Shown piece by piece: positions 2,457 through 61,228 of a stretch of DNA of 64,000 bases. Origin of the DNA: Amycolatopsis solani (GTDB lineage: Bacteria; Actinomycetota; Actinomycetes; Mycobacteriales; Pseudonocardiaceae); contig NZ_JAWQJT010000001.1 of NCBI RefSeq assembly GCF_033441515.1, forward strand, positions 3,844,001-3,908,000, in the 5' to 3' direction. Numbering within the stretch: position 1 is the first letter of the stretch; each line of letters opens with the position of its first letter. A model generated the notes under the pieces. It was given only the letters and a program-made list of their open reading frames with translations, had not been told where the DNA came from and did no database searches. Both the position numbers and the translations under genes were made by a program.

Positions 2457-3965
2457 GTGAGCGCAGCATCCGACCGCGGTTCCGGGGACGCGCGACCGGC
2501 GTCCCTCCGCCGCACCCTCGGCACCCCCAAGATCGTGTTCCTGGTCGTGGCCGCCGCGGCTCCGCTCGCCGCGATGGTCGGGACCGTCCCGCTGGCGTTC
2601 GCCATCGGCAACGGCGCCGCGGTGCCCGCGATGTTCGTCTTCGCCGGGCTCACCCTCCTCTGCTTCTCCGTCGGGTACGCCGCGATGAGCCGCCGGATCG
2701 TGACGTCCGGGGGGTTCTACGGCTACCTGTCCGCCGGGCTCGGCCGGCCGGCCGCGGTCGGGGGCGGGTGGGCCGCCGTGCTCGCCTACAACACCGCCAC
2801 CGTCGGGATGACCGGTGCCTTCGCCTACTTCGCGCAGCTCGTCGCGTCCTCCTACGGCCTCGACTGGCCGTGGCCGGTGTGGGCCGCGATCGGGCTGGCG
2901 CTGATGGGTGTCCTGGGCTACCGCAAGATCGACTTCAGTGCCCGGGTCCTCGCCGTCCTGATGATCGCCGAGGTCGCGATCCTGGTACTGCTCGACGTCG
3001 CGGTGCTGATCCGGCACGGCGGCGGTGCGCTGCCCGCGGCCTCGTTCGACCCGGCGACGATCGTCGGCGCGGGGCTCGGCGTCTCCCTGATGTTCGCGCT
3101 GATCTCCTTCATCGGCTTCGAATCCGCCGCGCTGTACGGCGAAGAGTCGCGCAACCCGCGCCGCAGCGTGCCGCTCGCCACCTACTGGTCGGTGATCCTC
3201 ATCGCCGTCTTCTACGCGCTGACGAGCTGGGTCGCGGTCGGCGCGGTCGGGCCGGGGCAGCTGCGGGACGTCGCCGGGCAGCAGCTCGGCAACCTCTTCG
3301 GCAGCCTCACCGACGACTACCTGGGCTCGACGGTCACCACCGGGATGCAGATCCTGTTGTGCACCAGCCTGTTCGCCGGGATGCTCGCGATGCACGGCGC
3401 GGCCAACCGCTACCTGTTCGCCCTCGGCCGCGACCGCGTGCTGCCCGCCGGGCTCGGCGCGGTGCACCGCAAGCACGGGTCGCCCCACCGCGCGAGCCTG
3501 ACGCAGACGATCTTCACCGTCGCCGTGACCGCGATCTTCGCGATCGCCGGCGCGGACCCGTACGTCAACCTGGCCACCACCATGACGGGGCTGGGTACGC
3601 TCGGCATCGTCGGGCTGCAGGCCGCGGCGTCCCTTTCGGTCATCGCGTTCTTCCGCCGCCGCCCGGACCGGCACTGGTGGCGCACCGGGGTCGCGCCCGT
3701 GCTCGGACTGCTCGGGCTGGTGGCGTCCGCGGTGCTGGTGATCCAGAACTTCGACCTGCTCACCGGCACCACCAGCACGCTGGTGAACTCGCTGCCGTGG
3801 GCGTTCGTGGTCGTCGTCGCGGCCGGCGCGGGCTTCTCGGTGTGGCTGCGCGCCCGGCGTCCCGAGCGTTATGCGGCGCTTTCCCGGATCGCGTCGGAAC
3901 GCGGCGGGCTGACGGCGGTCCCGGACCCGGAAGAACACGGTGACCGGCGGGCCGAAGCCGCCTGA
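2457..3965 (+). CDS. APC-superfamily amino acid/amine permease
   Basis: 502 residues from a GTG start preceded by GAGAGGAAG. The N-terminus (GTPKIVFLVVAAAAPLAAMVG) opens the first of about 12 hydrophobic segments typical of APC permeases; a conserved GGFYGYLSAGLG stretch lies at the TM2/3 region and FIGFESAALYGEESRNPRRSVP matches the family signature near TM6. It probably imports an amino acid or amine across the cytoplasmic membrane. Position after the GMC oxidoreductases suggests uptake of an amino-alcohol-like substrate, but this is inference. A longer in-frame extension exists upstream but runs through the repeat and lacks a ribosome site. Confidence 0.88.
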   Translation: MSAASDRGSGDARPASLRRTLGTPKIVFLVVAAAAPLAAMVGTVPLAFAIGNGAAVPAMFVFAGLTLLCFSVGYAAMSRRIVTSGGFYGYLSAGLGRPAAVGGGWAAVLAYNTATVGMTGAFAYFAQLVASSYGLDWPWPVWAAIGLALMGVLGYRKIDFSARVLAVLMIAEVAILVLLDVAVLIRHGGGALPAASFDPATIVGAGLGVSLMFALISFIGFESAALYGEESRNPRRSVPLATYWSVILIAVFYALTSWVAVGAVGPGQLRDVAGQQLGNLFGSLTDDYLGSTVTTGMQILLCTSLFAGMLAMHGAANRYLFALGRDRVLPAGLGAVHRKHGSPHRASLTQTIFTVAVTAIFAIAGADPYVNLATTMTGLGTLGIVGLQAAASLSVIAFFRRRPDRHWWRTGVAPVLGLLGLVASAVLVIQNFDLLTGTTSTLVNSLPWAFVVVVAAGAGFSVWLRARRPERYAALSRIASERGGLTAVPDPEEHGDRRAEAA

Positions 3966-4066
3966 GCGGCACTCGGGGAGATGTCCGCACTGCTCAGCGC
4001 CCCTACGATTTTCCTTTGGCGGCTGAAGAAAGTCTCCCGCCGACACGTCCTGGAGGAGCCGAAACA

Positions 4067-5422
4067 ATGCGTGTGCAATTCGCCATCTGGCCGGCCCCGG
4101 CGCACACCTTCCCGCTGGCGCCGCTGGCCTGGGCGCTGAAGTCCGCGGGGCACGAAGTCGTGATCGCCACGCACCCGGGCGGGGTGGAGACGATCGCGTC
4201 GATGGGCATCACCCCGGTCGCGGTCTGCGACATCGACAGCATGCCGATCCCGATGGGCCCCGGCCGGGCCTACGAGAAGGAACGCGCGGACCTCGCCGAG
4301 ATCACCGCGGCCCTCGAAGCCCTCGGCTTCGACGCCGACGACCCGGACCGCGAACACTGGGACGTCTACAGCCAGTACTACCTGCCCGCGCAGTGGGACT
4401 TCGCGCCGTGGAAGGGCGACCCGAACGAGCCGCTCCCGTTCCTCGACGGCCTCGTCGAGTTCACCAAGGCGTGGAAGCCGGACCTGGTGATCTGGGACGC
4501 CTGCCTGCCCGCGGCCGCGGTGGCGGCGAAGGTCGCCGGCGCGGCGCACGCCCGCTGGTGGACCGCGCCCGACGTCTTCTGCCGCAGCATCGACAAGTTC
4601 AAGGAGCTCACCGGCAAGCCGGGCGCCCCGGAGCTGCCGAACCCGGCGGTCGAGACGGTCCGCGCGGCGGCGGAGCGCTACGGCGTCGAGATCGACGACG
4701 AGCTGCTGTGGGGCCAGTGGACGATCAACTCGCAGCCGACGGAGATCGGCCCCGAGGTGTCCGCGAACGTCGTCCCGATGCGGTGGGTGTCGTACTCGAG
4801 CCAGCAGCCGATGCCGGGCTGGCTGTACCCGGTGCCGGAGCGCCCCCGCGTCGCGGTGTCGCTGGGCCTGTCCGAGCGCGCGTTCATGGAGGGCGGCTGG
4901 GACCACATCCCGGTGCTGCTGAACGCACTGTCCGAACTGGACGTCGAGGTCGTCGCGACGCTCGACGACCAGCAGCTGGCGAAGGTCGAGCAGATCCCGG
5001 AGAACGTCCGCGTGCTCCCCTTCGTCCCGCTGGACCAGCTGGTCCCGACGTGCTCGCTGCTGATCCACCACGGCGGCGTCGGCACGGTCATGCCGGCGAT
5101 CCTGAACAGCGTCCCGCAGCTGCTGGTGGACTTCGTCGGCCACAGCATCCGCGCGAACCCCTCCGGCGCGGCCCGCCTGGCCCGTTCGCGCTACAGCCTC
5201 GGCCCGGCGCTGGCCCGCTTCACCCTGGCGAAGGGCGCGGGCCTGGTGCTGAACGTGGCCGAGCCGGACGCCGCGGTGATGCGCGAGCAGATCCGCCGGG
5301 TCCTGGAGGAGAAATCCTTCAAGGAGAACGCCCAGCGGCTGCAGAAGGAGATCAACTCGGTCCCCGGCCCGGCCGAGTACGTGAAGATCCTGGAGCAGCT
5401 CACGCTCGACCACCAGAGCTGA
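4067..5422 (+). CDS. GT1 glycosyltransferase (activator-dependent/DUF1205-like)
   Basis: 451 residues; ATG lies 8 bases after GGAGGAG. The N-terminal acceptor domain begins RVQFAIWPAPAHTFPLAPLAWAL, as in macrolide and aromatic-polyketide glycosyltransferases. The C-terminal donor domain has the HHGGVGTVMPAILNSVPQLL nucleotide-sugar motif. It would transfer a deoxyhexose from an NDP-sugar to a small-molecule acceptor. It converges on a second glycosyltransferase across a shared terminator, and dTDP-sugar genes lie 8-10 kb away, consistent with glycosylation of a secondary metabolite. Donor and acceptor cannot be assigned. Confidence 0.9.
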   Translation: MRVQFAIWPAPAHTFPLAPLAWALKSAGHEVVIATHPGGVETIASMGITPVAVCDIDSMPIPMGPGRAYEKERADLAEITAALEALGFDADDPDREHWDVYSQYYLPAQWDFAPWKGDPNEPLPFLDGLVEFTKAWKPDLVIWDACLPAAAVAAKVAGAAHARWWTAPDVFCRSIDKFKELTGKPGAPELPNPAVETVRAAAERYGVEIDDELLWGQWTINSQPTEIGPEVSANVVPMRWVSYSSQQPMPGWLYPVPERPRVAVSLGLSERAFMEGGWDHIPVLLNALSELDVEVVATLDDQQLAKVEQIPENVRVLPFVPLDQLVPTCSLLIHHGGVGTVMPAILNSVPQLLVDFVGHSIRANPSGAARLARSRYSLGPALARFTLAKGAGLVLNVAEPDAAVMREQIRRVLEEKSFKENAQRLQKEINSVPGPAEYVKILEQLTLDHQS

Positions 5423-5438: not shown

Positions 5439-5525
5439 TGCGCCCCAATGTGGCGTTCGGTGCGTCAGACGCATCGAACGCCACATTGGGTGCGCTGGAC
5501 GCAACCAACGCCACATTGGGGCGCT
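5439..5525. repeat. Family A intergenic palindromic repeat, copy 2
   Basis: One forward unit (CGCCCCAATGTGGCGTTCGG) followed by two inverted units (CGAACGCCACATTGGG, CCAACGCCACATTGGGGCGC), between two convergent glycosyltransferase genes. Confidence 0.9.
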
Positions 5526-40456: not shown

Positions 40457-40840
40457 TCATTCCCAGATCTGGACCGCGCGGACCAGGAAGGGCGCGTTCG
40501 GGACGTACGTGCCACCACCCGGGTAGGTGATGAAATCGCCCTCGGTCGAGCATTCCTCGTCCTGGTACACCGTGACGTCGCGGCTCATCAGATTCGCGAA
40601 CGACGATCCCGCGAATCCTTCGGGCAGCGGAATGCATTCCCCGGGATTCGCGGTGCGCAGATCGAGCCGTTCGGACTCGCCGCCGTAGGCATCCGCCGAC
40701 CACAGGCAGAATTCACCCTTCTGACAAGCCGGATCCGGCGGCGGCGAAGCGGCCTGAGCCACTCCGGCACTGGTCAGCAGTCCGACGACGGCCAGGACGA
40801 GCAACTGCGGCAGCCGGGAACGGAGACGGCCTGAAGACAT
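40457..40840 (-). CDS. secreted peptidase-inhibitor family I36-like protein
   Basis: 127 residues; GAGGGG before ATG. Sec signal RLRSRLPQLLVLAVVGLLTSAGVAQA. Mature part contains CQKGEFCLWSADAYGGESERLDL, a beta/gamma-crystallin-like (I36) motif, and ECSTEGDFITYPGGGTYVPNAP; four cysteines can form disulfides. Exported protein that may inhibit proteases or bind metal. Divergent from an MFS gene across an intergenic region with interleaved inverted repeats. Confidence 0.82.
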   Translation of the reverse strand: MSSGRLRSRLPQLLVLAVVGLLTSAGVAQAASPPPDPACQKGEFCLWSADAYGGESERLDLRTANPGECIPLPEGFAGSSFANLMSRDVTVYQDEECSTEGDFITYPGGGTYVPNAPFLVRAVQIWE

Positions 40841-40938
40841 GGTGGATTCCCCTCGGGAGTCGCGGCCCGGTGGCCGCGGTGGATGTGTGATTCCAGGTTG
40901 GCTCGCCGGGGAACGGTTGTCAGCCCGCAATTTCGATT

Positions 40939-40990
40939 CTGTGGACAACTCCGGGAAGCGGGCGCAGTTGTCCACAGGGCCGCTTCCGGG
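40939..40990. promoter_or_regulatory. interleaved inverted repeats with two DnaA-box-like words
   Basis: CTGTGGACAACT (40939-40950) and its perfect complement at 40966-40977 each contain TTGTCCACA. A second inverted pair, GGAAGCGG and CCGCTTCC, straddles the right arm, giving an A-B-A'-B' order. In RNA this could be a pseudoknot; in DNA it could be an operator. It lies 68-119 bases before the MFS start. Confidence 0.5.
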
Positions 40991-41057
40991 GCTTGCGACC
41001 GGGGCGGTTCCGGTGTTATGCGCGCCGTGTCAAGCTGGGGCCGCGGAAGGGGGAACC

Positions 41058-42239
41058 ATGCGGGATCGGGTCGCGGTGTTCACCGTGTTCGCCCTCAACG
41101 GGCTGGCGATCGGCTCGTGGGCGACGCGGACGCCCGCGCTGGCCGCCCAGGTGCACGCCACCCCCGGCGTCTTCGGGCTCGCGCTGCTCGGCGCCAGCGT
41201 CGGCATGCTCTCGGCCGCTTCGGTGGCCGGCCGGGTCGTCGAGCGCTTCGGCGCGCGGGTGGTCGTGGCGGGGACCACCGTCCTGGCCGCCGTCGCGCTG
41301 GTGCTGATCGGGTTCGCGCCGGGCATTCCGCTCCTGGCCGGGGCGCTGTTCGCGGTCGGCGCGAGCGTCGGGATGCTCGACGTCGCGATGAACGTCGCCG
41401 CGGTGGCCGTCGAACGACGCACCCGGCGGCCGCTCATGCCGGTCTTCCACGCGGGGTTCAGCGTGGGCGCCCTCGCCGGTTCGCTGGCCGCGGGGCTCGC
41501 CGCGGGCCACGGCTGGTCCCCGGCGCGCCACCTCACCACCGCGGCCGTCGTCGCGGTCGCGGTGCTGCTGCTGGTGGTCCGGGCGGTGCCGGGCAGCCGT
41601 CCCGAGCACGCCACCGGGCCGGTGGTCACCGGCCACCGGGCGCCGATCCGCCGCCCGGTGCTGTGGCTGCTCGCCGCGGTCGCGCTGTGCTCGGCCGTCG
41701 CCGAGGGCGCGGCGGCCGACTGGTCCGCGCTGCTGATGACCGCCGAACGCGGCGTCGGCCAGGGTGCGGCGGCGCTGGCGTTCGCCGGGTTCCAGCTGGT
41801 CATGGCGCTGGCCCGGCTGACCGGCCCGTGGGTGCAACGGCGGTTCGGGCCGACCCGCTGCCTGGTCGCGGGTGCGGCGCTGGCCACGGCCGGGTTCCTC
41901 GCGACGGCCACGATCCCGGCCGCGGCGGTCGCGTACGTCGGCTTCGCGCTGGCCGGCGCGGGTCTCGCGGCGTCGTTCCCGCTCGCGTTGAGCCTCGCCG
42001 GCGACGCCGGGAAGCGCGGTGACGGCACCGGTGGCGAGCGCGAGATCGGGTTCGTGTCGGCCATCGCGTACACCGGGTTCCTGGCCGGGCCGCCGGTCAT
42101 CGGGGGCATCGCGCAGGGGATCGGGTACGGCGCCGCGTTCGTGTTCGTCGCGCTGGTCGCGGCGCTGATCCTGCCCGCGGCGGTCGCGGCCCGGTCGTCG
42201 CGGCGGCGGGAGGAAGCGCGGCAGGCCGCAGTGGGGTGA
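41058..42239 (+). CDS. MFS transporter
   Basis: 393 residues; GGAAGGGGGAA precedes the ATG. About 12 hydrophobic segments; FALNGLAIGSWATRTPALAAQVHATPGVFGLALLGASVGML at the start and GRVVERFGARVVVAG (motif A-like) are typical of the sugar-/drug-transporter MFS group related to YbjJ. Convergent with the YcaO gene across a Family A repeat, so not obviously part of the RiPP operon. Substrate unknown. Confidence 0.88.
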   Translation: MRDRVAVFTVFALNGLAIGSWATRTPALAAQVHATPGVFGLALLGASVGMLSAASVAGRVVERFGARVVVAGTTVLAAVALVLIGFAPGIPLLAGALFAVGASVGMLDVAMNVAAVAVERRTRRPLMPVFHAGFSVGALAGSLAAGLAAGHGWSPARHLTTAAVVAVAVLLLVVRAVPGSRPEHATGPVVTGHRAPIRRPVLWLLAAVALCSAVAEGAAADWSALLMTAERGVGQGAAALAFAGFQLVMALARLTGPWVQRRFGPTRCLVAGAALATAGFLATATIPAAAVAYVGFALAGAGLAASFPLALSLAGDAGKRGDGTGGEREIGFVSAIAYTGFLAGPPVIGGIAQGIGYGAAFVFVALVAALILPAAVAARSSRRREEARQAAVG

Positions 42240-42263
42240 GTTCGGGCCGGTCCGGCTGGGCAT

Positions 42264-42349
42264 GCGCCCCAATGTGGCATTGGGTGCGTCTGACGCACCG
42301 AACGCCACATTGGGTGCGCTGGACGCACCGAACGCCACATTGGGGCGCT
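42264..42349. repeat. Family A intergenic palindromic repeat, copy 3
   Basis: One forward unit (GCGCCCCAATGTGGCATTGG) and two inverted units (CGAACGCCACATTGGG), between the convergent MFS and YcaO genes. Confidence 0.9.
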
Positions 42350-42383
42350 CGTCCCGAGCGGAGCCGCGCCCGCGCGCCGAGCC

Positions 42384-43724
42384 TCAGCCGTGTGGCATCG
42401 GGGCGCGGTTGAGTTCCTCCTCGGCCAGCGGCTCCGGGTGCCACCCCAGCCTCGCCCCGAGGTCCTGGACCCGTCTCAGGCCCAGCGGGGGATACGCGGC
42501 CGGTGCCGTGCCGACCGTGCCCGGGACCAGGACCCGCACCACCCGCACGCCGTCCGCCGCCGCTTCCGGCGTTGTCAGGTCGACGTACAGGACCTCGTGC
42601 CCCGCCGCGGTCACGCACGCGTGCAGGGCGTCCAGCGAGTCGTCCGCCGGCCGCGGGATCGCTGCCCAGGCGACTTCGGGACCGCCCGTGGCCCAGGCCA
42701 GCGCTGCCGAGCCGGCTCGGGGGTCGAGGTGGAACTGCTGGTGGCACAGCAGCTCCACCAGGTCCGCCGGACCGTACTGGTCGGCGTAGTCCCGCGCCGC
42801 CCGCCACGGCTTCAGCGGGCTCGGGCGGTTGGCGATGATCGCCGACACCGCGTCGCGGTCGTCGAGCGTGCGGCACGTGATCTGCAGCGTGTACGCCTCC
42901 GCCAGTGCCTTCAGCGCCGCCTGCTCGGGGTCGGGCCGCATCGCCGTGCCCACCGTCAGCCACCCTTCCGGCGAGCGGACCGCGGCGGCGATCACCGGCA
43001 CGCCGAACGCGTTCTCGATCGACCAGAAGCGGGCGTCGCCGCCGAGGGCAGCCAGGCGCGGGGTCGGGGCCAGGGTGGGCTGGGGCGCGCCGTTGAGCCA
43101 CCAGACCGCCGCGGCGTCGTGTTCGACGATCTCCTGCAATCCCGACCGGATCGCGGCTTCGAGGGTTTCGCCCGCGGCCGTGCCGCCGATCGCCGGGAAC
43201 GCGTGCAGCGGTTCCGCGACCTGTTTCGGCACGTGGGGCCAACCGGTGTGGACCAGGAACGCCGGCACGTGGACGTCACCACCGCCGAGGGAGGTGGCAC
43301 GCACCCAGTGGACCGGTGACGAGCCGAGGAACGGCGTGAAGGGGAACCCGGGCGTGGCGTACTGGCGGGGCGAATACAGGGCGACGCGCGCGGGGGACAG
43401 CGCCGTCAGCCCGCGGGCGACGAGGTCGTCGTGGCTGCCGTGGACGAGGTCCTCGGGCGGCCAGGTCGCGCAGTATCGCTCCACCGCCTCGCCCCGGGCG
43501 GCCACGCGCGCGTGCACCGGGTCGTCCCACGACGTGCCGAAGCCCTGCGGGTCGGCCTGCCACGGGAGGTCGACCCGGCGGATGTCGGCGACCGCCAGGT
43601 GCAGGGCCGCCGGAACGCCTTCCAGGCCGGCGAAGGACCGCAGCCGCGTGACGATGGGGCCGGGGCCCGGCGCGGAGCGGCGCTCGCCGCTCCGGCCGGG
43701 CATCCCTTCGTGCACAGCGGTCAT
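42384..43724 (-). CDS. stand-alone YcaO-domain protein (RiPP cyclodehydratase candidate)
   Basis: 446 residues. YcaO ATP-binding segments are visible: GFGTSWDDPVHARVAARGEAVERYC (Glu79, Glu82), IGGTAAGETLEAAIRSGLQEIVEHDAA (Glu198, Glu201) and QAALKALAEAYTLQ. It ends ...NRAPMPHG, only partly like the proline-rich tail of azoline-forming YcaOs. YcaO enzymes phosphorylate a peptide amide and let Cys, Thr/Ser or another nucleophile attack. The start ATGA overlaps the precursor stop, so precursor and enzyme are translated together. No E1/ThiF leader-binding protein, TfuA or dehydrogenase is adjacent. Bottromycin-type stand-alone YcaO is the nearest functional precedent, by inference. Confidence 0.88.
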   Translation of the reverse strand: MTAVHEGMPGRSGERRSAPGPGPIVTRLRSFAGLEGVPAALHLAVADIRRVDLPWQADPQGFGTSWDDPVHARVAARGEAVERYCATWPPEDLVHGSHDDLVARGLTALSPARVALYSPRQYATPGFPFTPFLGSSPVHWVRATSLGGGDVHVPAFLVHTGWPHVPKQVAEPLHAFPAIGGTAAGETLEAAIRSGLQEIVEHDAAAVWWLNGAPQPTLAPTPRLAALGGDARFWSIENAFGVPVIAAAVRSPEGWLTVGTAMRPDPEQAALKALAEAYTLQITCRTLDDRDAVSAIIANRPSPLKPWRAARDYADQYGPADLVELLCHQQFHLDPRAGSAALAWATGGPEVAWAAIPRPADDSLDALHACVTAAGHEVLYVDLTTPEAAADGVRVVRVLVPGTVGTAPAAYPPLGLRRVQDLGARLGWHPEPLAEEELNRAPMPHG

Positions 43725-43870
43725 CGGCGTTCCGGCAGGTAGGCCGCGACGCACGTGTTGACCGTGAGGCTCGCGGCCACGCACGTGTTCACGACGAGGC
43801 TCGCCGCGACGCACGTGTTGACGACCAGTGCTTCCGGGGCGGTCTCGACGGAGAACTGCTCCTGCTTCAT
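43721..43870 (-). CDS. RiPP precursor peptide with three decapeptide core repeats
   Basis: 49 residues: leader MKQEQFSVETAPEAL, then VVNTCVAASL (16-25), VVNTCVAASL (26-35), TVNTCVAAYL (36-45) and tail PERR. Every repeat keeps Val-Asn-Thr-Cys-Val-Ala-Ala, with Cys20, Cys30 and Cys40 as candidate azoline or other modification sites. Both ends are four-base ATGA overlaps: with the exporter stop upstream and the YcaO start downstream. Size, repeats and neighbours fit a multi-core RiPP precursor. No protease gene is adjacent. The same frame is open far upstream, but that is an antisense-like extension through the exporter gene. Confidence 0.85.
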   Translation of the reverse strand: MKQEQFSVETAPEALVVNTCVAASLVVNTCVAASLTVNTCVAAYLPERR

Positions 43871-45120
43871 GGCGCTACCCTTTCCATCGACGGCCCGCCA
43901 CCGGGTGCGGTGGCGGGATCGTTCCGCGCGTCCGAGGCGCCCACCTCGCGCGGAAGCTTGGTACCGAACGCGAACCCCGCGGCGGCCAGCGCGCCGAGCC
44001 CGGCGCAGGCCAGCCAGACGGCCGCGGGGCCGCCGCGGTCGAGCAGCCAGCCGCCGCCGGCGGGCCCGAGCAGGGCCGCGGCCGACCACGCGCCGGTGTA
44101 CAGGGCCGCGTACCGGCCGCGTTGCGTGCCGGGGGCCCGGTCGGCCGCCACGGAGCTGCCGACGGGCATCTGCAGGATTTCCCCGACGGTCCAGACCAGG
44201 GCGATGACGGCGTACCCGAGCAGCCCTTCGGCGAACAGGTTGAGCCCGAAGCCCCACCCGATCAACAGGGCGCTCGCCACCAGGACCGGTCGTCGCTGGT
44301 GCCGCCGCGCCCACCGGGTCAGCGGGAGCTGCAGGAACGCGATGAGCAGCCCGTTCAAGGCCTGCACGAGGCCGAACGCCCCGGCGGTGAGCCCGGCGCC
44401 GACCATGACGACCGGCAGCGTCGTCGCGCTCTGTTCGTAGACGCAGCCGATCGCGAGGGTGGCGAGCAGGAAGACGGTGAACCGCCGGTCGAACCGCAGC
44501 GGCGGCCGGGCCACGCGGGTCCGCGGCGTCCACGGCGGCCGCGTTTCCGGCACCTTCAGCAGCACGACGAGCGCGCACAACGCGGTCGCGGCGGCGTCGG
44601 CGACGAAGACGACCGGGTAACCGAAGCCCACCATGACGCCGGTGAGCGCGGCGGACACGGCGACCCCGACGTTGACCGCCCAGTAGTTCAGCGAAAAGGC
44701 CTTCGGCCGGTCGGCGGGCGGCACGACGTCGGCGAGCGCGGCGTTCATCGCCGGCCGGGCCGCCACCGAGCCCACGCCGACGGCGAAGGCGGCCGCTTCG
44801 AGCTGCCAGCGGCCGCTCGCGGTGCCGAGCGCGACCATGGCCACCGCGGTGACGACGTGCGCCAGCACGAGGGTCGGCCGACGGCCCAGCCGGTCGGCGA
44901 GCACGCCGCCGGCCACGGTGCCGAGCACGCCACCCAGCCCGATCAGGGCGATGACGAACCCGGCGTAGGACACCGGGTACCCGTGCCCGGCCGTCAGCGA
45001 CAGCGCGAGCACCGGCCGGGTGAAGGCGCCGGCCCAGTTGACCAGGAGGCTGATCCAGATCCACCAGAACACCGGCGGCAAGCTGCCGGAGTGCCGGCGG
45101 GACGTCATCGTGTGCGTCAC
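43867..45120 (-). CDS. MFS exporter of the YcaO/RiPP operon
   Basis: 417 residues from GTG with GGAGG 8 bases upstream; an ATG four codons later is poorly spaced. About 12 hydrophobic segments; motif A GGVLADRLGRRPTLVLAH after TM2 and PPADRPKAFSLNYWAVNVGVAVSAALTG later. First gene of the operon; its stop overlaps the precursor start. It probably exports the mature peptide and gives self-immunity, a role that would explain why it precedes the precursor. Confidence 0.9.
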   Translation of the reverse strand: MTHTMTSRRHSGSLPPVFWWIWISLLVNWAGAFTRPVLALSLTAGHGYPVSYAGFVIALIGLGGVLGTVAGGVLADRLGRRPTLVLAHVVTAVAMVALGTASGRWQLEAAAFAVGVGSVAARPAMNAALADVVPPADRPKAFSLNYWAVNVGVAVSAALTGVMVGFGYPVVFVADAAATALCALVVLLKVPETRPPWTPRTRVARPPLRFDRRFTVFLLATLAIGCVYEQSATTLPVVMVGAGLTAGAFGLVQALNGLLIAFLQLPLTRWARRHQRRPVLVASALLIGWGFGLNLFAEGLLGYAVIALVWTVGEILQMPVGSSVAADRAPGTQRGRYAALYTGAWSAAALLGPAGGGWLLDRGGPAAVWLACAGLGALAAAGFAFGTKLPREVGASDARNDPATAPGGGPSMERVAP

Positions 45121-45480
45121 CGCCGGCCTCCGTTCCCCTGGTTTCTCGTCCCGAGCCGGGTTGCCGTTCCGTCTGGATCGCAGCGGGGATGGCGTTCCCG
45201 GGGCTCCTGCGGGAGAACCTCGGGTGTGGTTCTCCCATCGAGCCGGGTGCCTTCCGCTGGGTCTCAGCTGGGAGGCGCACCCCCGAACTCATGGATAAAT
45301 CATGGCTTCGGGCATGGAGATCGCTCATCTCCTCGATTGCCGGCCGCTCGGCGGCACCCGTTGACAGTGCCGAACCGGTGGGGGCAAGCTGACCCTGTCG
45401 GTAAACTGAAATGAATGCAGCGACGCTTCGATTTCAGGTCGGCTGATCAGGGCGGGGGCCCTTGATCCGGGGAGGACGTC
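45121..45480. other. 360-bp divergent intergenic region, RiPP operon and histidine kinase
   Basis: No gene supported. It must hold the RiPP operon promoter (not recognisable with confidence) and the kinase promoter. For the kinase, TTGACA at 45361-45366 is followed after 18 bases by CAAGCT. Confidence 0.5.
45361..45390 (+). promoter_or_regulatory. candidate vegetative promoter of the histidine kinase gene
   Basis: Consensus -35 TTGACA, 18-base spacer, weak -10 CAAGCT; 90 bases before the GTG start. Confidence 0.4.
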
Positions 45481-46653
45481 GTGAGGGTTGTGCTGCTCGG
45501 CGGAGCGGGGGCGCTCGCCGGCGGGAGCGGTCGGTGGGGTGCGCTGTCGCTGGTCCAGGGCGCGGTGCCACGGCTCGTGCTGGTGCCGGTCGTGTTCCGG
45601 CTGGTGCTCTTCCTCCAGGCGCTGTGGGCCGCGGGCGGGCCCACCGCGCCGGTGCTCTGGCTCGCCGTGGCGTTCTTCCTGGTGCCGAACCTCCTCGAGG
45701 TGGCCTGGGTCTTCCGCCGCGCCACCGGGATCCGGCCGGTGCTGGTCGCCGACACCGCGTACACGCTGGTCAGCAGCCTGGCCGCGGCCGCGTTCGCTCC
45801 CGGCCTGCTGGCGCTGACCTGGCCGAACGTGATGGGCACGGTCATGGTCTGGACGCTGCTGCGCGGCGCGCCCGCCGGTGCGGCGGCGATCGCCGGTGCC
45901 GTGCTCCTGCGCTACGGCACGGCCGCGGTTTCGGGCACGTCCGCGCCGGCGACGTGGATCCTGTTCGCCCTGTTCGCGGCCCTCGTGACGGGGCTGGCGA
46001 TCGTGCTGCTGGTCGCCGGGTCGATGCGGTTCGCGCACCGGCTGGGCGAGCAGCGCGGCCGGGCGGCCGAGCGCGAGCGGCACCGCCGGGACGTCCACGA
46101 CACCGTGCTGCAGGTGATGGAATCACTCGCCCTGCCCGTCCCCGGCGACGCCCTCGATCCCGTCGGCAGCCTCGACCAGGTCCGGCGCACCGCCCGCGCG
46201 CACGCGCTGCGCCTGCGGCTGAGCCTCGACGGCGACGCGCCCGCCGAGCCGGGTGGGCTCGAACACCGCCTCGGCGCGCTGGCGGTCGAGATGACGGCGG
46301 ACGGCCTGCGCGTCGACCTCGTCGTGCTCGCGAAGCCCGCCGAAGTGCCCGAAGCCGTCGTCAACGCGCTGCACGACGCAGCCCGCGAAGCACTGCGAAA
46401 CACCCTGAAGCACGCGAAAACCACCAAGGCCGTCGTCTGCCTCGAAGAGCGTGAAGCCGTCGTCACCGTGTCCGTGCGCGACCACGGGACGGGCTTCGAC
46501 CCGGCCGCGCGCCGCGCGGGGTTCGGCATCGACAACTCCATCCACGCGCGCCTGGCCGAGATCGGCGGCACCGCGCGCGTCGATTCGGCGCCGGGGCAGG
46601 GCACCCGCGTCGTGCTGACCGCGCCGCTAGAGCTGCGTTTCCCCGTCGGGTGA
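45481..46653 (+). CDS. orphan NarL-type sensor histidine kinase
   Basis: 390 residues; GTG with GGGGAGGA upstream. Five or so N-terminal membrane segments form a sensor, then a HisKA_3 dimerisation helix ERERHRRDVHDTVLQVMESL with His206, and an HATPase domain (N-box ALHDAAREALRNTLKHAKT, G-box VRDHGTGFDPAARRAGFGIDNSI, GQGTRVVLTAPL). It autophosphorylates and normally signals to a LuxR/NarL response regulator, but none lies adjacent. Divergent from the RiPP operon, so it could sense conditions or product relevant to it; that is speculation. Confidence 0.88.
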   Translation: MRVVLLGGAGALAGGSGRWGALSLVQGAVPRLVLVPVVFRLVLFLQALWAAGGPTAPVLWLAVAFFLVPNLLEVAWVFRRATGIRPVLVADTAYTLVSSLAAAAFAPGLLALTWPNVMGTVMVWTLLRGAPAGAAAIAGAVLLRYGTAAVSGTSAPATWILFALFAALVTGLAIVLLVAGSMRFAHRLGEQRGRAAERERHRRDVHDTVLQVMESLALPVPGDALDPVGSLDQVRRTARAHALRLRLSLDGDAPAEPGGLEHRLGALAVEMTADGLRVDLVVLAKPAEVPEAVVNALHDAAREALRNTLKHAKTTKAVVCLEEREAVVTVSVRDHGTGFDPAARRAGFGIDNSIHARLAEIGGTARVDSAPGQGTRVVLTAPLELRFPVG

Positions 46654-61170: not shown

Positions 61171-61228
61171 AGCGCCCCAATGTGGCATTGGGTGCGCTGG
61201 ACGCACCGAACGCCACATTGGGGCGCTT
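61171..61228. repeat. Family A intergenic palindromic repeat, copy 4 (short form)
   Basis: One forward and one inverted unit (AGCGCCCCAATGTGGCATTG ... CGAACGCCACATTGGGGCGCT), at a convergent junction two bases before the RibD-like stop. Confidence 0.9.

Follow-up and report, generated by a model that had tools for sequence, protein, structure and literature searches.

A three-gene unit of exporter, repeat peptide and stand-alone YcaO protein in Amycolatopsis solani, and its relatives in other actinobacteria

Gene content of the locus

We analysed a 64-kb stretch of the Amycolatopsis solani genome (G000:C1:3844001-3908000; host genome 10.28 Mb), hereafter the window, whose positions serve as coordinates below. 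Its minus strand carries three genes that encode, in this order, a major facilitator superfamily (MFS) exporter, a short repeat peptide and a stand-alone YcaO protein. The trio, which recurs in other actinobacteria, has the look of a small natural-product pathway not yet characterised. With a probability of about 0.5, we read it as a self-contained pathway for ribosomally synthesised and post-translationally modified peptides (RiPPs), in which the lone SagD-like YcaO would make thiazolines and the MFS protein would export the resulting small peptides. An earlier note on this DNA, made from the sequence alone, had placed an exporter, a 49-residue peptide and a YcaO protein on one strand with an ATGA overlap at each junction, and so it proved: the exporter stop and precursor start share ATGA at 43870-43867, the precursor stop and YcaO start at 43724-43721. 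The features are as follows.

43867..45120, minus strand: MFS exporter gene, 417 amino acids (aa) (MFS_1 PF07690, 156.4 bits; cut-off 33.4)
43721..43870, minus strand: precursor peptide gene, 49 aa (Pfam and NCBIfam scans gave no match)
43796..43825, minus strand: repeat unit 1, VVNTCVAASL (from sequence)
43766..43795, minus strand: repeat unit 2, VVNTCVAASL (from sequence)
43736..43765, minus strand: repeat unit 3, TVNTCVAAYL (from sequence)
42384..43724, minus strand: stand-alone SagD-like YcaO protein gene, 446 aa (PF02624, 168.1 bits; cut-off 25.7)
42240..45480, no strand: trio-bearing stretch between two flanking genes (from the empty-site comparison)

For the empty-site comparison, the sensor-kinase gene adjoining the exporter (45481-46653) was sought in a survey of 80 genomes of the genus. 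It matched at E<=1e-100 in 47 genomes (33 had no match), and 30 loci were compared. Six had the trio between the flanks, with the exporter beside the kinase, and 24 had no trio; in these the kinase was followed by a homologue of a second MFS gene that the window has at 40839-42239, and in L091 only a remnant of this homologue was left. The flanks are an estimated 70-382 bp apart in 23 of the 24 trio-less loci and 3,241 bp apart in the window; gene calls between them were inspected in four of the 24. Because the flanks are neighbours where the trio is missing, the three genes come and go together, and the comparison assigns no other gene of the window to their unit.

The precursor peptide family

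The window precursor, MKQEQFSVETAPEALVVNTCVAASLVVNTCVAASLTVNTCVAAYLPERR, carries three tandem 10-residue repeats. A seven-residue word is present three times in it, and a repeated seven-residue word appeared in none of 20,000 residue shuffles. A phage-family search with three precursors gave no match below E 0.018. Using a precursor profile against the protein database (2,402 candidates), we retrieved 12 proteins at E<=1, ten of them under new identifiers; three of these ten duplicate the precursors of L065, L066 and L068, and Kitasatospora P0123 holds three VVNNCV units. The fragment P0132 (137 aa, E 0.19, 522-base contig) was left out of the precursor counts; it has PNTC-type units at its end, behind a stretch that by eye resembles a flavin-dependent halogenase, and its contig may be chimeric or frameshifted.

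Precursors carry 2, 3, 4 or 10 copies of a unit that contains [N/T]-C-[V/A]-x-A: two in L066, three in L063 (VNNCVAAYV) and L070 (ENCVPAH), four in Amycolatopsis genome G039 and ten, of about nine residues each and with PNTC, in Streptomyces cylindrosporus (L062). Close to this ten-unit precursor lie genes for an NDP-hexose 2,3-dehydratase (L062:5347-6318) and a GFO/IDH/MocA oxidoreductase (3956-5347), perhaps the edge of another cluster.

All 20 precursors have units with Cys, which is the best-conserved residue of the units. Together they hold 64 Cys in 50 distinct contexts, aligned on Cys by construction. The preceding residue is N or T in 49 of the 50, the following one V in 44, and 47 of the 49 contexts that extend to position +3 have A there. 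Several Streptomyces-type precursors have only about four residues ahead of the first unit (MNEQ-, MNQH-), similar to the spacers between units (D/E, E/Q, then F/L).

In some relatives an oxygenase may act as well. A JmjC_2-type gene lies immediately upstream of the exporter in four of the seven loci from other genera (called by Pfam in L063, L064 and L066, by similarity in L068), and a JmjC_2-type query gave no match in the six Amycolatopsis loci, which suggests an optional extra modification in those other-genus loci. That gene and the nearly invariant Asn or Thr ahead of Cys speak for another possibility, in which the YcaO would perform an as yet undescribed reaction at Asn/Thr-Cys, to which the oxygenase might add in some relatives; the precursor repeats of the sister family described below, which lack heterocyclisable residues, point the same way. 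There is, on the other side, no direct sign of such a reaction, and the residue best conserved is the Cys itself, so that we hold this explanation to be improbable.

Distribution and conservation of the trio

Within the genus survey, a YcaO match at E<=1e-20 was found in 32 of the 80 genomes. The orthologues in the five genomes other than the source (G042, G017, G025, G069 and G039) are 81-90 % identical to the window protein, the next best match stands at 46 %, and the repeat peptide gene lies between the MFS and YcaO genes in all six orthologue genomes.

Protein searches extended the family. Scoring the 7,997 candidates that shared most words gave 133 matches, of which 120 were listed; among those listed, 45 clusters (P0003-P0047) have at least 51 % identity to the window YcaO, all with 438-482 aa, and their named members belong to Amycolatopsis, Streptomyces, Kitasatospora and Micromonospora. 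A contig scan brought up no relative when the window YcaO was the sole query. Repeated with an alignment of 15 relatives, it gave at least 10 loci, of which eight among the matches listed fall in the clade of the window YcaO (L062, L063, L064, L065, L066, L068, L070 and, from A. eburnea, L067), all eight with the order exporter, precursor, YcaO. The other two listed, L069 and L071, were set aside as streptamidine-like; the gene of L071 at first read as AmiE is a second YcaO.

The same gene order was found in all 12 distinct relatives (five Amycolatopsis and seven from other genera). A precursor not conserved next to YcaO in relatives had been named in the earlier note as one result that would refute the proposed cluster, and each of the 12 has the precursor there; on this comparison of sequences, the arrangement is no chance association, as it recurs in every one of them. 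The proposed minimal three-gene cluster with a multi-core precursor is likewise backed, as an architecture, by this conserved order. The homologous triplets that were to be looked for in Pseudonocardiales exist, and also beyond that order: the full triplet is found in records named Streptomyces, Streptosporangium and Microtetraspora, YcaO and precursor occur as separate database entries in Kitasatospora, and Micromonospora has a YcaO entry alone.

Gene spacing is similarly constant. The ATGA overlap of exporter and precursor is present in 13 of 13 loci (the window, L041, L042, L048, L049, L050, L062-L066, L068 and L070), and precursor and YcaO overlap or are at most 4 bases apart in the 11 loci with an assigned YcaO start; in L062 and L068 their junction reads TAATG. 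Exporters are 77-94 % identical to that of the window in the five same-genus loci and 50-55 % in the seven others.

Two further scans added no member. A core DNA pattern, run on 397 genomes of the order (a draw with none of the five other trio genomes), matched only the source genome and G120; the latter, one isolated site, was taken as chance because the reversed control pattern matched three genomes. A Streptomyces relative searched against 394 genomes of the class found no further stand-alone member; the matches in four other genomes were open frames of 737-817 aa with 41-45 % identity.

The presence of the trio in only six of 80 genus genomes could suit a remnant or neutral operon without any product. 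The codon changes in the precursor argue otherwise: over the first 47 precursor codons, compared in four genomes (the four-repeat G039 was left out), the window differs from G042, G025 and G069 by 6, 6 and 7 synonymous changes with no non-synonymous one, and from G017 by 6 synonymous and 1 non-synonymous, so almost all are synonymous. As all three genes are, moreover, still intact in other genera, where protein identity has fallen to about 50-55 %, the remnant explanation is hardly credible.

Profile, structure and phylogeny of the YcaO protein

The SagD-type model TIGR03604 matches 15 of the 15 clade members scanned (E<=0.001). The thioamidation model TIGR03266 gives the window YcaO 43.2 bits against a cut-off of 365. 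This low score bears on a backbone thioamidation of each unit, for which thiovarsolins, made from a repeating precursor by a cluster that has a YcaO and an MFS gene but lacks a specific protease, offer a precedent (PMC6511847). Thiovarsolins, however, need TfuA, whose deletion abolishes production, and a TfuA search of the source genome gave 0 matches (the control search was positive in 1 of 14 genomes). TfuA-dependent thioamidation was thus rejected, and we consider thioamidation of the units in general very unlikely.

Among solved proteins, the best sequence match in the PDB is MusD (5.1e-14), followed by TruD (1.3e-13) and LynD (1.4e-13), and Foldseek ranks the same three highest, LynD and TruD being heterocyclases and MusD a YcaO protein. 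The match to MusD, which is also among the best structures, raises the possibility that the YcaO closes the ring and also separates the repeats by hydrolysing the backbone with ATP, in the way that MusD cleaves at a C-terminal recognition sequence (ATP-dependent hydrolysis by MusD is described in the review PMC10885120), so that two proteins would be enough for the free product; the units do need to be released, and the trio has no protease. TruD and LynD match about equally well, however, without a peptidase role described in the passages found, and host peptidases are thought to free the thiovarsolin cores (PMC6511847). We therefore judge such a double role rather improbable.

An AlphaFold model of the relative P0021 has a mean predicted local distance difference test score (pLDDT) of 78 and a predicted template modelling score (pTM) of 0.82. 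Its first 31 residues have pLDDT <50, a low confidence like that of disordered stretches, and hence no folded recognition domain is seen there. All 18 clade members inspected, and three of four sister proteins, close with PxPH followed by a single residue; the C-terminus of the window YcaO is ...APMPHG.

A tree of 101 YcaO domains (440 columns) was inferred by a quick IQ-TREE run with the Shimodaira-Hasegawa-like approximate likelihood ratio test (SH-aLRT) as sole support. P0009, P0048, P0086, P0089 and P0110 were left out, and the window clade was thinned to 20 rows, i.e. 18 of the 45 clusters and two loci. The window YcaO clade forms one group (SH-aLRT 99). Its sister consists of 10 fused proteins (94), and clade and sister are held together with 100. 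The length-based labels of the tree are imperfect: P0059 and P0074, labelled as stand-alone, fall among fused proteins, and the other stand-alone group contains three long rows. Because the midpoint root sits on a long branch, that a fused partner was lost in the window clade is something we can only infer.

The sister group includes Amycolatopsis enzymes that adjoin AVVHNR precursors. In the source genome, such a peptide (L034:8357-8491, contig C2), with repeats free of Cys, Ser and Thr, lies upstream of a fused E1-YcaO of 724 aa (L034:8565-10739), and an MFS gene comes next in both L034 and L036. AVVHNR-type peptides with 3 to 6 VVHNR copies were seen in 11 loci from 11 genomes. Another fused YcaO of 725 aa (L043:9352-11529) adjoins a 33-residue peptide with a central NNN (L043:11715-11816), and this locus also encodes an MFS-like protein and, judged by eye, two peptidase-like ones.

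Streptamidine-like stand-alone YcaOs (rows L039, L040, L069 and L071, labelled AmiD-like by gene order; the tree contains no AmiD) form a separate group (SH-aLRT 98), apart from the branch with 100. The clusters at L039:6475-11626 and L040:6285-11312 each encode two YcaOs, an AmiB-like protein and a precursor with two NALVHNPFA units, and are apparently related to the streptamidine motif B group.

This separation counts against an amidine as in streptamidine. By that route, a cut before Asn (LVV / N-N-C or N-T-C) would free an N-terminus, Cys3 would form a transient ring, and attack of the free amine on the residue-2 carbonyl would close an amidine ring of six members. Many units do read [LF]-V-V-N-[NT]-C, in an inferred register that also puts a heteroatom residue at position 3, and the sister family reads A-V-V-H-N-R. 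Yet AmiB, AmiC and AmiE are essential for streptamidine, no AmiB- or AmiC-type genes were found in the 13 loci, and changing Ser3 to Cys abolished the products of the streptamidine pathway (PMC8442711). An amidine is in our view unlikely.

Search for a partner protein

Partner domains were sought by tblastn with 11 queries: seven N-terminal domains taken from fused YcaOs, three proteins of AmiB type and one N-domain from the other cyclodehydratase of the source genome. These E1-like/AmiB-type queries, which included no Ocin-ThiF protein, found no match at E<=0.01 in the 13 clade loci (14-64 kb each). They did match control loci, several of them across loci, the own-genome N-domain only its source; AmiB-like proteins and fused N-domains also match each other (the P0060 N-domain hits L040 at 1.3e-9, within a small control set). 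Three partner-domain queries matched 0 of the 45 listed clade members and 10 of the 10 sister-group proteins. AmiC-like queries (three, labelled by gene order) had no match in the 13 clade loci, and no AmiE search was made. The absence of the usual partner, which the earlier note had remarked on, thus extends to E1/AmiB-type domains in the 13 loci and the 45 listed relatives and to TfuA in the genome.

Elsewhere in the source genome, TIGR03882 matches the fused domain of the other cyclodehydratase (143.9 bits), the second fused YcaO weakly (20.5 bits, below the cut-off) and a free protein at G000:C3:2448208-2449260 (L079:814-1869; 38.5 bits, above the cut-off). This protein, the only free E1-like one found in the genome, was rejected as a dedicated partner because it occurs in 80 of the 80 genus genomes; its neighbours resemble, by eye, M48 and UbiB/ABC1 genes. 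The other cyclodehydratase cluster (L035:8235-12038, contig C1, about 98 kb from the trio) has a fused TIGR03882-YcaO followed by a SagB-type dehydrogenase, the only one of that type in the genome.

Proposed pathway

The pathway that we favour would start with the YcaO and adenosine triphosphate (ATP) activating the backbone carbonyl that precedes each Cys, in Asn-Cys or Thr-Cys. Ring closure would then give a thiazoline, with a loss of 18 Da per unit. Judging from the enzyme family and the conserved Cys, a thiazoline at the Cys of each unit is most likely, and the family evidence points to -18 Da at Cys more than to a gain of 16 Da. Since the unit has no dehydrogenase, the ring would remain a thiazoline. 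Recognition probably relies on a segment ahead of each core that the YcaO reads directly, and not on one leader bound through a partner, because in several Streptomyces-type precursors the first unit has only about four leading residues, which resemble the spacers. Host peptidases or the YcaO itself would then separate the units, and the released small thiazoline peptides would leave through the MFS exporter.

Several observations weigh against this thiazoline pathway. The window YcaO scores 216.6 bits with TIGR03604, 2.65 below the cut-off of 219.25. Its distribution is narrow: an orthologue is present in six of the 80 genus genomes, the source included, and a search of 390 genomes of the family yielded none close outside the genus, where the top matches (41-44 % identity, five genomes) show fused-type similarity. 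The sister enzymes have a partner domain, and help may come in trans, e.g. from the E1-like domain fused to another YcaO of the genome. No protease gene is present in the three-gene unit. The middle unit of the precursor P0126 lacks Cys, and P0131 has an additional Cys off the pattern. Finally, since the AVVHNR repeats of the sister precursors have no Cys, Ser or Thr, the lineage may carry out a reaction different from azoline formation.

A bolder version would be partner-free and essentially leaderless: one YcaO would read the repeated segment, cyclise the Cys of 2-10 units and sever the units with ATP, freeing thiazoline (or amidine) peptides. We offer this as speculation and think it doubtful.

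Novelty and significance

Neither VNTCVA peptides nor VVHNR repeats gave a text match in the literature searched, and no such family appears in the titles and abstract beginnings covered of the related literature, subscription journals lying mostly outside the search. The remark in the earlier note that it knew of no described family with this precursor therefore stands for the literature searched; that the trio is unpublished is uncertain. A survey of 1,514 stand-alone actinobacterial YcaOs (PMC8442711) describes Network 1 peptides without Ser/Thr/Cys-rich regions, so the window precursor family is not the one described there, though window-type precursors may be present, unnamed, in its supplementary data.

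Stand-alone YcaOs without a C protein had unknown substrates (PMC4603692), and most stand-alone actinobacterial YcaOs were of unknown function (PMC8442711). How a YcaO acts without a leader-binding partner is little understood, and the window clade bears on this question through a natural contrast, i.e. 45 listed stand-alone enzymes versus a sister group with the partner domain in 10 of 10, with repeat precursors on both sides where inspected. Two short genes make co-expression in E. coli feasible, and the natural precursors with 2 to 10 units are a ready series. If the YcaO works alone, it would be a minimal tool for placing rings into repeat peptides.

Other features of the window

An interspersed, intergenic-looking inverted repeat with GACGCACCGAACGCCACATTGG or its complement occurs at 2286-2360, 5445-5519, 42269-42343 and 61177-61221; the set at 42269-42343 is immediately behind the YcaO gene. 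A peptidase inhibitor I36 domain protein is encoded near the trio (40457-40975), and by eye an I36-like gene is at the equivalent place in L041, L042, L048, L049 and L050.

Comparison with known systems

With azol(in)e RiPPs (thiazole/oxazole-modified microcins, TOMM, or linear azol(in)e-containing peptides, LAP), the window unit shares a SagD-type YcaO and the presence of ring donors among Cys, Ser and Thr; no fused or adjacent E1-like partner was found with the E1-like/AmiB-type queries.

LynD, TruD and MusD give the best sequence and structure matches among solved proteins. They differ in being proteins of 775-784 aa with additional N-terminal domains.

Fused E1-YcaO/AVVHNR systems form part of the sister YcaO group and have a repeat precursor with an adjoining MFS gene in L034 and L036, but they have the fused partner domain, repeats without Cys, Ser or Thr, and a transporter just 29 % identical.

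Thiovarsolin clusters also pair a YcaO and an MFS gene with a precursor whose repeats vary in number, and they too lack a specific protease, but they require TfuA, have APR/GPR cores without Cys and yield a thioamide (PMC6511847).

The streptamidine family resembles the window unit in its unfused YcaO, in precursors with one to three copies of an ALV-containing motif and, in streptamidine, in a heteroatom residue at core position 3. It differs in its need for AmiB (E1-like), the hydrolase AmiC, AmiE and iron-type transporters, in precursors that are not Ser/Thr/Cys-rich and in its YcaO clade (PMC8442711).

Bottromycin YcaOs work without a partner protein, and one of them forms a thiazoline from Cys (PMC8442711, PMC4603692), but that pathway has two YcaOs, an N-terminal core with a follower (PMC7136475) and methyltransferases (PMC4603692). 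The bottromycin type, cited in the earlier note as a precedent for YcaOs working alone, thus holds, compared by description, for the apparent independence from a partner and not for the rest: the window unit has one YcaO, and its repeats fill the peptide in place of an N-terminal core and follower.

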